Shown: piece by piece, positions 48,880 to 61,190 of the stretch
Layout of the letters: every line of letters begins with the position of its first letter
How positions within the stretch are numbered: the stretch's first letter is position 1
Assembly: GCA_014649555.1 (NCBI GenBank)
Contig: BMTG01000014.1
Coordinates: 124,001-188,000 of the forward strand
DNA length: 64,000 nt
From: Streptomyces globisporus
GTDB lineage: Bacteria; Actinomycetota; Actinomycetes; Streptomycetales; Streptomycetaceae
Direction: 5' to 3'
Notes under the pieces: generated by a model
Seen by the model: the letters and a program-made list of their open reading frames with translations, nothing else
Told to the model about the DNA's origin: nothing
The model's database searches: none
Made by a program: the position numbers and the translations under genes

Positions 48880-49200
48880 TCAGGCACTGCGGGGGGTGGC
48901 GGAAAGGGGTTCTGCGTCGAACAGCTCGTGGTCGCGCTGATCGAGATTGACGAAGATCATGCCGTACCTGACGGCACAGCGAACCGGCTGCGGGGCGCCG
49001 CGGGGCCGACGGAGGCAGCGATAGGCGCGGACGTCCTCGTCCTCTTCCATCACCACGACGATCGGCTCTCCGAACAGGGTGACCATCAACGAGTCGCCAC
49101 GGCGGGGGAGGGCCGTGAGCAGATCGATGAAATGCCACCCTGAGCGATAGGCGGTTGCCATCTCGCGCCGGAAGGTGCGGTCGTCCGGCGGGGTGCTCAT
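48880..49200 (-). CDS. Small Rieske-like protein with both ligand histidines replaced
   Basis: 106 residues from the ATG at 49200. The text SGWHFIDLLTALPRRGDSLMVTLFGEPIVVVMEEDEDVRAYRCLRRPRGAP follows the start of a Rieske oxygenase domain (GEPVVVxRDEDGxVRAFxNxCRHRGAP). The cluster motif C-x-H...C-x2-H reads C62-L-R64 and C75-AV-R78, with only 10 residues between instead of about 16. A classical [2Fe-2S] centre is therefore unlikely. Its start overlaps the repeat-peptide gene (ATGA, 49197-49200), so the two are made together. Fold call is inference; no other family was recognised. Confidence 0.5.
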   Translation of the reverse strand: MSTPPDDRTFRREMATAYRSGWHFIDLLTALPRRGDSLMVTLFGEPIVVVMEEDEDVRAYRCLRRPRGAPQPVRCAVRYGMIFVNLDQRDHELFDAEPLSATPRSA

Positions 49201-49517
49201 GCGACCGTACGGGCCGGAGCGACCCAAGCGATGTCGCCGTCGGCGGGCGACATCGACCAGGCGATGTCACTCGGCGCCGCTGCCGGTACGACCCAGGCGA
49301 TGTCCCCGGGTGCAGCCGCTCCCTCGGCCCCCCAGGCGATGTCTCCGGGCGCAGCTGCCACTTCGACACCCCAGGCGATGTCCCCGGGAACGGACACCGC
49401 CTCGGCACTCGAAGCTATTCCGCTACCGCCCAGCGCACCGAAAGCCACGGCTGCGACGAACGAGGCGGCAAGCGCCGAGCGAAGCATTCGCTTGTACATA
49501 GTCGGCTTCGTCCTCAC
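49197..49517 (-). CDS. Secreted repeat peptide with five GDIAW-type units
   Basis: 106 residues from GTG 49517 (GGGGAGAAG upstream; ATG 49499 also possible). Residues 1-40 are a Sec signal peptide (basic KRMLR, core SALAASFVAAVAFGALGG, likely cut near ASSAEA). The rest is five repeats with Trp at 49, 62, 75, 87 and 98: PGDIAWG, PGDIAWG, PGDIAWV, PSDIAWS, DGDIAWV, separated by Ala/Glu/Val spacers. No other domain and no Cys. It is coupled to the Rieske-like gene. Possibly a multi-core precursor, signal peptide or wall-binding repeat protein; function unknown. Confidence 0.72.
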   Translation of the reverse strand: MRTKPTMYKRMLRSALAASFVAAVAFGALGGSGIASSAEAVSVPGDIAWGVEVAAAPGDIAWGAEGAAAPGDIAWVVPAAAPSDIAWSMSPADGDIAWVAPARTVA

Positions 49518-49590
49518 TTGTGGATTCTTCTCCCCCGCACATAAGACGATGTCCTACCTGGGCACTCGAACACCACTGAGTCGATGCATC

Positions 49591-49614
49591 ATGTTCCTGA
49601 ATGTTCAGGAACAT
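49591..49614. promoter_or_regulatory. 24-bp palindrome just before the LuxR-type regulator
   Basis: Arms ATGTTCCTGAA and TTCAGGAACAT flank TG. The right arm ends directly before the GGGGGGTGGAG ribosome site of the regulator gene. It is a strong candidate autoregulatory operator, or a hairpin limiting translation. It also lies 74 bp from the repeat-peptide start on the other strand, so one protein could control both. Confidence 0.75.
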
Positions 49615-49627
49615 GGGGGGTGGAGAT

Positions 49628-50611
49628 ATGCCTACAAGCGACACAAAGCCGACACATCCTCACGGGATAACCGAACTATGTGCGGCGGGAGGCAACCTCT
49701 ACGCCAGTGCGCTGCGTTCCGGCCGCATCGCACGCGCAGAAGTCGCACCAGCACCTTGCCTGATGGAGTTCGCCCTACTCCACCCCGATCCCGATGATCC
49801 GGAATGGCTCCGGCCCGTACCGCCGTCCGCCGCTCTGGCACAACATCTGCACCCCATAGAACGCGAGATACAGGAACGGCGACGGCACTCCGTCGAACTG
49901 ACCGAATCCTTCGAGCCTTTCATGGACATCAGCGCTCAGGATCCGCCGACCACCCATGCCATAACGGTGCTGGAAGGCGTCAACCGGATCAACGCGGCGC
50001 TCGATCTCGCAACAGCGGAGTGCCGCACCGAGGTTCTCACCGTGCAGCCCGGGGGCGGCCGCAGCGAGGACCGGCTCAGCGAGGCGCTGGAGCGCGGCAT
50101 GTCCGTGGTGGACCGGGGTGTCAGCATCCGTACGCTCTATCAGCACACCGTGCGCCACAGTCCCGGCACACTCGCCTACGCGGAGCGCATGGCAGACACA
50201 CATGTGGAGATCCGGACTCTCGAGGAACTCATCGAGCGCCTGATCATCTTCGATCGCACGGTGGCCTTCATCCCCGCACAGGACGACCGCCAAGTCGCCC
50301 TGGAGCTCCGCCATCCGGGGCTCGTGGAATACCTGGTGAAAGTCTTCGAACAGCTCTGGACCCGCGCCGCCCCCCTCATGGAAGAGGTCAAGTACGACCC
50401 GACCCCGCAGGGTGTCAGCGGTGTCCAGCGCTCCATCGCACAACTCCTGGTCGAAGGCCACGTGGATGACTCCATCGCCCGCAGGCTCGGTATGAACGTC
50501 CGCACCTGCCGCGCCCATGTGGCCAAGCTCTCCGCCGCCCTGGGCAGCAGCAGCCGGGCCCAACTCGGCTACCTGATCGCCCGGTCCGGAATCCTCGAAT
50601 CGGATTCCTGA
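49628..50611 (+). CDS. LuxR-type HTH regulator with phospholipase D-like middle domain
   Basis: 327 residues from the ATG at 49628 (GGTGGAG upstream). N-terminal part: HPHGITELCAAGGNLYASALRSGRIARAEVAPAPCLMEFALLHPDP. The middle, about 110-245, resembles the TrmB/PLD-like module (NAALDLATAECRTEVLTVQPGG, IRTLYQHTVRHSPGTLAYAERM, DRTVAFIPAQDD). C-terminal LuxR HTH, about 265-325 (SIAQLLVEGHVDDSIARRLGMNVRTCRAHVAKLSAALGSSSRAQLGYLIARSG). No receiver or phospho-site. Divergent from the GDIAW peptide operon and probably its regulator. Confidence 0.8.
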   Translation: MPTSDTKPTHPHGITELCAAGGNLYASALRSGRIARAEVAPAPCLMEFALLHPDPDDPEWLRPVPPSAALAQHLHPIEREIQERRRHSVELTESFEPFMDISAQDPPTTHAITVLEGVNRINAALDLATAECRTEVLTVQPGGGRSEDRLSEALERGMSVVDRGVSIRTLYQHTVRHSPGTLAYAERMADTHVEIRTLEELIERLIIFDRTVAFIPAQDDRQVALELRHPGLVEYLVKVFEQLWTRAAPLMEEVKYDPTPQGVSGVQRSIAQLLVEGHVDDSIARRLGMNVRTCRAHVAKLSAALGSSSRAQLGYLIARSGILESDS

Positions 50612-50782: not shown

Positions 50783-51234
50783 ATGGGAACAGAAGGCATC
50801 GAAACACCCCATCCGCACGCGAACACCGAAGTGTGCGAGCCGGCGTTGCACCTGTACCGCGAAGCCCTGCACACCGGGCGAGTCGCGCGAGCCGAACTCG
50901 GCGCCGTCCCCTGCCTCATCGACATGGCTCTGCTCCACCCCGACCCGTGGGACGGCCGGTGGATGCGCCCGGTACCGCCTTCGGCCGCCCTGGCCAACGC
51001 GCACACGGCCATCCGGCGCGGAACCAGGATCCGGCACATCTACCAGCACCCGGCCCGGTACAGCAGCTCCGTCAGAAGCTATCTGTCCCAGATACCGGTC
51101 CAGCATCTTCAGGTACGCACGACCGAGCCCACATCGCCAAACTCATGCAGGCACTCGGCGCCACCAGCCGCACCCACCTCGGCGCACTCCTCGTCCGGTC
51201 CGGCATCGTGGAAGCCGACCGGCGCGAGCAGTGA
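50783..51234 (+). pseudogene. Decayed paralogue of the LuxR-type regulator
   Basis: From ATG 50783 the text parallels the intact regulator upstream: HPHANTEVCEPALHLYREALHTGRVARAELGAVPCLIDMALLHPDP and PVPPSAALA. It then jumps to RGTRIRHIYQHPARYSSSVRSYLSQIPVQHLQVRT, matching a block about 75 residues further on. After that the frame is lost. The matching C-terminus RAHIAKLMQALGATSRTHLGALLVRSGIVEADR continues in another frame up to 51234. Two internal deletions and a frameshift therefore separate it from a working gene. Confidence 0.82.
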
Positions 51235-60114: not shown

Positions 60115-61190
60115 GACACTCCTCGGGGGACCGCCCGGCGGCCCTCCTCATCGATCAACTCGGCAGTGAAGGCGAGGTAGTCGAGCAGTTCGTCGCTCCA
60201 CTCGCAGTAGGTGGCGAAGTCCCGCATGTGCGTGACGACGCGGAGCACGGCGCAGCGCCCGACGGCCACCGGGTCGTACACCGGTCCCGCCGGCCCGTGG
60301 TCACCGTCCTCACGGACGCCGGCGTCGTGACTGCCGCCCTCGCGGCCGTCCGTGTCGCTCCCGTCGGCTTCGTACGCACCGAGGAACACCCGCTGAAGGT
60401 CCGTGACGGACAGCAGCCCCGGGCTCTCCGCCACCGCCCGGTGGAGCGGCGAGGACCAGGCCAGCTCGACGAGGTCGCCCAGCATCCAGCCCAGGTCCAG
60501 CTCCCGGCGGCCCGCGCCCAGGTCCTCACCGGTGAGCAGCACAACGCGGCCCCGGCTCCGGGGCGGTACGAGCGAACCGGTCGACGCCCAGCCGTGCAGC
60601 GGCACGACCGGGGCTCCGGTGCCCGAGGCACGTACGGCCTCGTCCGCCCAGCCCAGCAGGCGTTCCGTGCGGCCCTCGCCCCACACCTCCCGCGCACGCC
60701 GCCGCAGCCGCGCGGCCGCCGGGGCGAGCGGCGCGGTCCCGGACGCCCACTCCCGCAGTCGCCGCACCCCCGGGGGCGGGAGAGGCTGCGGACCGGGGGG
60801 CAGGGAGACCCCGTGCAGGGCCCGGAGCGCACGCGCGGCGGCGGCGAGGGAGTGGGCGACGAGCCGCCCGGCCTGCGGGCGGGGGTCCCGCAGCCAGGCG
60901 GCGGCCGACGCGGACCCGGCGGCCCGGTGGAGCAGCCCGTCCCCGTACGGCGTGCCGGTGGCCAGCAACGCGGCCCCCTCGGCAGATCCTAGATCCGGCA
61001 CGAGGGCGGCCGACCGGGCGGGCACGCGGAGCGGGCCGCCGCGCCGGGGCCCCGGCCCGTGCCACCACAGGAAGTCACCGGCACCGCCGAGGTCGCCGTC
61101 GGCCCCCCGGTGAACCCGCGTGATCTGAAGGCCGGTTCCGTACTCGGCGACCGGAACACCCAGCTCCGGAGATGGACTTGCCACGTTCAC
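60111..61190 (-). CDS. LanX-like protein, apparently a degenerate APH pseudokinase
   Basis: 359 residues from a GTG in the GTGA overlap with the decarboxylase gene. It resembles the C-lobe of an APH kinase (VAHSLAAAARALRALHGVSLPPG, then HGWASTGSLV at 199-208, then LLTGEDLGAGRRELDLGWMLGDLVELAWSS). The catalytic Asp of HGD is Trp and the metal-binding DFD/DWE is TGED, so it should not catalyse. In lexapeptide-type clusters LanX is required with LanK and LanY but its role is unclear. The pseudokinase reading is mine. Confidence 0.65.
   Translation of the reverse strand: MNVASPSPELGVPVAEYGTGLQITRVHRGADGDLGGAGDFLWWHGPGPRRGGPLRVPARSAALVPDLGSAEGAALLATGTPYGDGLLHRAAGSASAAAWLRDPRPQAGRLVAHSLAAAARALRALHGVSLPPGPQPLPPPGVRRLREWASGTAPLAPAAARLRRRAREVWGEGRTERLLGWADEAVRASGTGAPVVPLHGWASTGSLVPPRSRGRVVLLTGEDLGAGRRELDLGWMLGDLVELAWSSPLHRAVAESPGLLSVTDLQRVFLGAYEADGSDTDGREGGSHDAGVREDGDHGPAGPVYDPVAVGRCAVLRVVTHMRDFATYCEWSDELLDYLAFTAELIDEEGRRAVPRGVS

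Follow-up and report, generated by a model that had tools for sequence, protein, structure and literature searches.

We analyzed a 64,000-nucleotide stretch of the Streptomyces globisporus genome (contig BMTG01000014.1, positions 124,001 to 188,000 of the forward strand), hereafter called the window, and focused on a small open reading frame (ORF) on its minus strand that encodes a repeat peptide with a tryptophan motif. An earlier note, made from the sequence alone, had described this ORF as a secreted peptide of five GDIAW repeats, translated in coupling with a possible modifying protein. The ORF lies between a small Rieske-like gene and a divergent regulator gene, and the following features were assigned at the locus.

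48880..49200, minus strand: small Rieske-like protein without cluster ligands, 106 amino acids (aa), overlapping the peptide stop (ATGA)
49197..49499 (stop included), minus strand: probable real extent of the peptide precursor ORF, ATG start, 100 aa
49371..49382, minus strand: DIAW unit 1
49332..49343, minus strand: DIAW unit 2
49293..49304, minus strand: DIAW unit 3
49257..49268, minus strand: DIAW unit 4 (SDIAW)
49224..49235, minus strand: DIAW unit 5
49500..49517, minus strand: ultraconserved 5' leader GTGAGGACGAAGCCGACT, with a Shine-Dalgarno-like GAGGA; it reads VRTKPT if GTG is taken as the start
49586..49611, unstranded: conserved promoter element and candidate operator, consisting of the palindrome TTCCTGAACATTCAGGAA and then CATGATGC on the peptide strand
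49628..50611, plus strand: divergent regulator P0004, with a TrmB/PLD-like domain and a probable LuxR-type helix-turn-helix (HTH); ATG 49628 is the inferred start, and the listed ORF begins at 49601

In the window peptide, Trp 49, 62, 75, 87 and 98 are each preceded by Asp-Ile-Ala, as the earlier note had read them; four of the units are GDIAW and one is SDIAW, so that its count of five holds for DIAW only. When residues 26-106 were shuffled 20,000 times, no shuffle contained two DIAW units, as against the five observed. One scan of genome contigs with the 106-aa query yielded 74 Streptomyces loci (L006-L079), and in these the ORF is kept with its repeats, on whose conservation in relatives the earlier note had staked its reading beforehand. 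Across the 75 sequences formed by the 74 loci and the window, 295 of the 296 Trp residues beyond residue 25 lie inside a general unit, [DE]xxW, the lone outlier falling in a hydrophobic stretch of L065. The number of units, a property that the earlier note had singled out for checking, is not conserved: each protein carries from one to eleven after residue 25 (at least two in 74 of the 75), and spacing likewise varies freely between relatives, with no constant unit length.

Each genome repeats one ‘dialect’ of the unit (DIAW, DIGW, DSGW, DTGW and others). A single motif is used throughout in 70 of the 74 sequences with at least two units, and pairs of motifs agree in 601 of 606 comparisons within genomes versus 7,218 of 42,465 between genomes. 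On the regulator tree, 14 changes suffice to account for the eleven dialects of the 74 loci, versus 46-49 in shuffles (the range of the five printed out of 30 run). Among 18 close pairs, which overlap and are hence non-independent, the motif codons showed 19 synonymous and no amino-acid differences in 192 codons, and the spacer codons 58 synonymous and 77 amino-acid differences in 838 codons. The ORF that the earlier note had called is real, lies on the minus strand and, by these substitution patterns, is under protein-level selection. The uniformity inside genomes can be accounted for by homogenization through tandem duplication, but the fixed Asp/Glu and Trp need selection. The mature parts are acidic (D+E 551, K 94 and R 67 in 5,030 residues after residue 25). 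Searching the genome with a degenerate DNA version of the motif was uninformative: 159 and 184 matches on the two strands, against 126 and 167 for the reversed control.

The form with the fewest units is found in L134-L137, four deep relatives comprising two pairs of near neighbours, whose precursors carry a single unit at the extreme C-terminus and end in ...VQQDPAWD and ...AQQDPTWG; the precursors of L050 and L066 also terminate at a unit, DLGWD. All of 46 further loci (L088-L133), retained from the genome draws searched with the Rieske-like profile (see below) and some possibly from the same species as the 74, encode a peptide with at least two [DE]xxW units, and they include lineages with a different signal sequence and the motifs EPSW, EPTW, DPVW, DITW, DVSW and DLVW.

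The longer reading of the ORF on the minus strand, 49197-49517, has a GTG start and 106 codons. In L114 and L117, however, the same 5' DNA GTGAGGACGAAGCCGA is followed by one base fewer before the ATG, which puts the GTG out of frame. GTG 49517 is therefore ruled out, and the real start is most likely ATG 49499 (MYKRMLRSALA..., 100 aa), with GTGAGGACGAAGCCGACT as a 5' leader; the frame and stop given in the earlier note stand, and its start is to be moved accordingly. The leader DNA and a closely similar N-terminus (MYKRMLRS or near) are common to all 74 loci, and not one base of codons 2-5 in the ‘GTG’ reading differs among them (74/74). In codons 7-25 the 18 close pairs showed no synonymous and two amino-acid differences in 342 codons; since the motif shows 19 synonymous changes, the 5' end is constrained as nucleic acid as well. 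The first 25 codons (window 49440-49517, minus strand) likewise show no synonymous difference among close relatives. CTT and AGA/CGA codons, which are rare in Streptomyces, are conserved in this region, and directly after the ATG comes the inverted repeat AGCGAA-TGC-TTCGCT, which is imperfect in those relatives that have AGA. A match to the leader DNA at 60363-60379 of the window was examined and is not a second copy. The peptide gene is single-copy, the four other tblastn matches in its own genome all having E 0.02 or worse.

The signal sequence of the peptide was assessed by eye and by a hydrophobicity rule. The window peptide has no match in Pfam or NCBIfam at E up to 1, and 43 members of the family gave only scattered weak matches there (best E 0.0017). 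In the titles and opening abstract lines of the open-access papers that searches returned, no recognizable description of the family was found. Thus, the earlier view of a secreted multi-unit precursor from an undescribed family is well supported at the level of predicted features.

The peptide stop overlaps the start of the Rieske-like gene (ATGA, 49197-49200), and across the 74 loci the two are overlapping or a few bases apart. The earlier note had proposed to look for small DIAW-repeat ORFs beside a Rieske-like gene, and this adjacency was found in 74/74 loci, with the Rieske-like homologue downstream at 77-100% identity. A homologue of the divergent regulator lies upstream in 74/74 (66-95% identity), and ClpB and a small PNPOx-like gene also adjoin all 74 loci. 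Of the genes further out, we checked the two ABC genes of the window, which are present at two of the 74. Searched with a profile of the Rieske-like protein, 255 of 295 Streptomyces genomes gave a match at E <= 0.01, of which about a dozen, counted by eye, are weak (worse than 1e-20); in an order-wide draw the profile matched 232 of 293 genomes, in two of nine genera. Ten weak matches from both draws were located and six of them read: L134-L137 are a diverged form of the locus, with a regulator 58% identical to P0004 and a Rieske-like gene of 37-44% identity, and L138 and L140 are larger oxygenase-like proteins. Because the second genus rests on L140, the locus itself has been seen in one genus only. 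L140 comes from another genus of the family (G503) and is a full-length ring-hydroxylating-oxygenase-like protein, in which the Rieske ligands seem to be missing as well.

The divergent regulator and its paralogues with their own Trp-motif peptides were absent from the earlier note. P0004 is 336 aa as listed and 327 aa from its probable start. A structure model (mean predicted local distance difference test score, pLDDT, 83) matched TrmBL2 (E 5e-13), PLD-fold nucleases and phospholipases, and the TrmB sugar-binding domain (E 7e-6) in the PDB, with TM-scores of only ~0.34 over the whole query; lower-ranked matches included LuxR-type quorum-sensing receptors, among them VqmA, RhlR and LasR. A C-terminal GerE HTH was matched at E 0.003, below the Pfam cut-off, and in the paralogue P0006 at E 2e-7, above it. 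The HxK motif is not present in P0004, so PLD catalysis is unlikely. No tetratricopeptide repeat (TPR) was matched in Pfam or NCBIfam at E up to 1.

Between the regulator and the peptide, the sequence CAGGAACATGATGC at the peptide-side end of the palindrome was found without mismatch in 95 of 124 loci and with two or fewer in 124/124; in 50 of the 124 this is the best match within the 500-800 bp stretch used. As a first, weak control, 71 pieces (160 bp each) of a single homologous region gave 5-7 mismatches; a second one, with 226 pieces (780 bp each) taken upstream of long ORFs in diverse stretches, gave 3-6. Beside the regulator lies one more feature.

50783..51234, plus strand: broken tandem paralogue of the regulator, in which mainly the N-terminal part matches

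In its place, many relatives carry one or two tandem regulator paralogues of greater length.

In S. coelicolor, clpB is SCO3661 according to a passage in PMC2687793, and SCO3665 and SCO3666 are given as LuxR-family in a passage of PMC3282765. By gene order, SCO3664 is probably the orthologue of the window's regulator. The relevant part of PMC6585502 reports that a transposon insertion in SCO3664, annotated there as ‘regulator’, raised actinorhodin more than 50-fold, and lists an SCO3664 complementation plasmid.

The genome of the window contains eight further P0004-like places, one of which is the broken tandem copy. One of the other seven, the P0006 locus L155, encodes on the divergent strand a small peptide whose N-terminus is signal-like; it ends in GDLPWTR and carries a second DLPWT inside. 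Homologues of P0006 (E <= 1e-60) were found in 24 of 61 Streptomyces genomes, at 30 loci (L160-L189), the discovery locus among them. We scored as paired any locus with a product of 30-140 aa that has a basic start, a hydrophobic stretch and a Trp among the last six residues, and that lies on the divergent strand within 1.3 kb upstream of the regulator. By this rule 15 of the 30 loci were positive, versus 1 of 226 pieces upstream of long ORFs (20 stretches, 17 genomes; Fisher p 3e-15) and 2 of 280 random tiles; without the discovery locus L160 and the chance-looking L184 the figure is 13 of 29 (p 4e-13). An earlier control, 1 of 154, was weak, since its pieces were mostly mutually homologous and came from the ClpB region of the 74 loci. 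The rule missed the peptides of L166 (DSINWD) and L169 (VIGWD) at the edge of the piece. Across these paralogues the peptides are otherwise dissimilar and a similar Trp motif recurs, the endings being DLPWTR, DSINWD, VIGWD, DAGWQ, DMGWQ, DLGWQ, DMSWQ, DFGWQ and GDVTWGG. A small third protein family is present upstream of the regulators at 15 of the 30 loci (L160-L189); many of its members begin MYLVH, and it is apparently the third gene of those modules.

The regulator family extends further. In a class-wide draw, profile A4 (E <= 1e-50) matched 38 of the 148 genomes, belonging to 16 of 81 genera. Thirty loci were scanned, of which L193 and L194 repeat loci already counted, leaving 28 new ones. 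A comparable peptide was recognized by eye at eight of these (L191, L195, L196, L199, L207, L209, L216 and L219), with L212 doubtful. It lies downstream of the regulator in L195, L209 and L219, and L195 (DGIIWD), L196 and L207 (STIWG) are outside Streptomyces. P0004-like regulators also occur on 113 of 72,556 plasmid records, and 12 loci taken from 20 listed of the 113 included six with a peptide of this type. Four of these peptides are mutually similar, with DDxW near the C-terminus, and stand beside AfsA-type genes; one locus has three DTGWGAP units beside a peptide synthetase gene; and a peptide with GDSAWG lies downstream of its regulator. The adjoining regulator, Trp-motif peptide and AfsA-type gene on plasmids L227, L228, L230 and L232 hint at a coupling of peptide and butyrolactone signalling. 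A phage collection contained no P0006 homologue.

The label ‘Rieske-like’ in the earlier note was a fair guess at descent, resting on weak matches: Pfam gave E 0.13 and NF058607 E 3e-6, both far below the score cut-offs, and nearly all of the 50 PDB matches listed for its model (pLDDT only 68) are Rieske proteins, yet none reaches E 0.001. The CxH/CxxH cluster ligands, read by eye, are absent in 19/19 aligned homologues, so that the protein cannot be a normal Rieske enzyme and we rejected that function. The note's proposal of a coupled modifying enzyme is not supported, given this absence and the different small third gene present at half of the 30 paralogous loci. The Rieske-like protein is probably a cluster-less, strongly conserved remnant of an oxygenase domain. 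The 19 aligned Streptomyces homologues have a mean column identity of 81% and an invariant ATPRSA C-terminus, and the domain is perhaps an exapted oxygenase fragment.

With the peptide beside the regulator in most Streptomyces sampled and similar peptides beside related regulators, the ORF looks like raw material for a message that the regulator senses. We therefore propose, as a reading that we hold to be probable with moderate confidence, that it encodes a precursor holding several copies of a short signal peptide, which would be exported and sensed by the regulator next to it. The precursor, with its tandem [DE]-x-x-W-x cores (in the window, DIAW and its neighbours), would be exported by a Sec-type route; a short linear peptide would be cut from the Ala/Pro/Gly spacers outside the cell and imported by an oligopeptide permease; the peptide would then bind the divergent LuxR-type regulator at its TrmB/PLD-like sensory domain, and the regulator would control, as a minimum, the divergent promoter of its locus. 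We infer the steps of export, cleavage, uptake, binding and regulation. Supported directly are the conservation of the three-gene unit, selection on the motif, the use of one motif per genome, the C-terminal single-unit form, the recurrent pairing of paralogues with Trp-motif peptides and the conserved promoter palindrome. The most economical reading is that peptide signal and receptor form a pair found repeatedly among actinobacteria, the window carrying its multi-copy, ClpB-linked member.

Other explanations were weighed against this one. The peptide may instead be a secreted effector that acts whole outside the cell, as a surface-active coat, a metal binder or an antimicrobial, with the regulator merely controlling its production. 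The acidic mature parts, the up to 11 units per protein and the commonness of secreted products adjoining regulators would fit; but in close pairs the spacers are free to change while the motif is fixed, single-unit forms stop right after the motif, and similar motifs stand beside many paralogous regulators in otherwise dissimilar peptides. We consider an effector unlikely. A conserved leader, a variable repeated core and a coupled oxygenase-like gene are also what would be expected of a ribosomally synthesized and post-translationally modified peptide, whose Asp...Trp unit would be a cross-linked or oxidized core made possibly via the Rieske-like protein. This is improbable to a greater degree, given the missing ligands and the lack of a conserved modifying enzyme, the other constant genes found at the locus being the regulator, ClpB and the PNPOx-like gene.

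The earlier note had also considered a wall-binding repeat, and tandem aromatic repeats that follow a signal-like N-terminus would fit one. A wall- or surface-binding protein is nevertheless very improbable, because the length and number of its units are not fixed, going down to one C-terminal copy, and convincing Pfam or NCBIfam matches are lacking. We give equally little weight to a regulatory leader ORF, whose translation would control the Rieske-like gene while its product is unimportant. The stop/start overlap or few-base gap in the 74 loci and the nearly frozen 5' DNA would agree with such a role, but the motif is selected at the protein level, the N-terminus is signal-like, and comparable peptides occur at paralogous loci beside other third genes.

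Several results also weigh against the signal-receptor proposal. Pairing is by no means general: a peptide is lacking at about half of the 30 P0006-type loci, the share among the other paralogues of the own genome is low (1/7), none was found at six loci of the f20 family and seven of the f21 family (0/13), and none was recognized at the other six plasmid loci. The tandem regulator paralogues in the ClpB loci had no convincing peptides of their own in 25 loci scanned. The pairing rule was drawn up after the first examples had been seen, and its 15 positives count L160 and L184; among the six plasmid peptides, four are closely related to one another. Across loci the dialect changes beside a regulator that stays 66-95% identical; a strict lock-and-key receptor would have to accommodate this. 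Elsewhere in the genome the candidate operator has two poor matches and no good second site, so that autoregulation is the simplest interpretation; no broader direct regulon emerged.

Known systems offer partial parallels. The RRNPP family includes Phr, PapR, NprX and AimP with TPR receptors. As described in passages of PMC10075063, RRNPP systems of the Bacillota place a small propeptide with an export signal beside a regulator of 250-500 aa, a size range into which P0004 falls, and use a short signal unit; here the export signal is read from sequence only, and the unit is C-terminal in the single-unit forms. The present system differs in its TrmB/PLD-like domain with probable LuxR-type HTH in place of a TPR, in its occurrence in Actinomycetota, in its mostly tandem units and in its Trp-centred motif. 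Since the regulator lacks the defining TPR, we do not place the system in RRNPP, though it would be RRNPP-like in its working; it is probably a candidate family of peptide signals separate from that group. TrmB and TrmBL2 of archaea are the closest solved folds to the regulator model, but the window's regulator has a probable C-terminal LuxR-type HTH, whereas TrmB is a sugar-binding regulator according to its PDB title. Similarly, the coupled 106-aa protein weakly matches the N-terminal domain of Rieske non-haem oxygenases in sequence and fold, yet has neither the cluster ligands nor the catalytic domain.

Gamma-butyrolactone signalling provides intercellular control of antibiotic genes by an enzyme-made small molecule and TetR-type receptors, and four of the plasmid peptide/regulator pairs adjoin AfsA-type genes of that pathway. 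A passage in PMC10075063 describes Actinomycetota signals as typically enzyme-made small molecules and assigns oligopeptide signals to the Bacillota, and part of a review (PMC4748050) names ‘cyclic or modified peptides’ beside butyrolactones in actinobacteria. The 655 Da signal of S. coelicolor, described in a section of PMC9640686 as an extracellular peptide imported by the BldK oligopeptide permease, is unsequenced; the present peptides would share its route of uptake.

We also put forward a broader claim, tentatively and as one that may well prove wrong: Streptomyces and some other actinobacteria may possess a large family of ribosomally made signals that share a [DE]xxW-type core, come from precursors with one or several copies and differ in species-specific dialects, being sensed inside the cell by TrmB/PLD-LuxR regulators, a class of receptors unrelated to RRNPP. 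If this is true, the copy linked to ClpB would represent a system found almost throughout the genus and involved in antibiotic production, and some of the plasmid-borne copies would be wired beside butyrolactone-synthase or peptide-synthetase genes. Widespread gene-encoded peptide/regulator pairs would then constitute a new layer of control over antibiotic production in Streptomyces, and short synthetic peptides might serve as cheap inducers of silent gene clusters.
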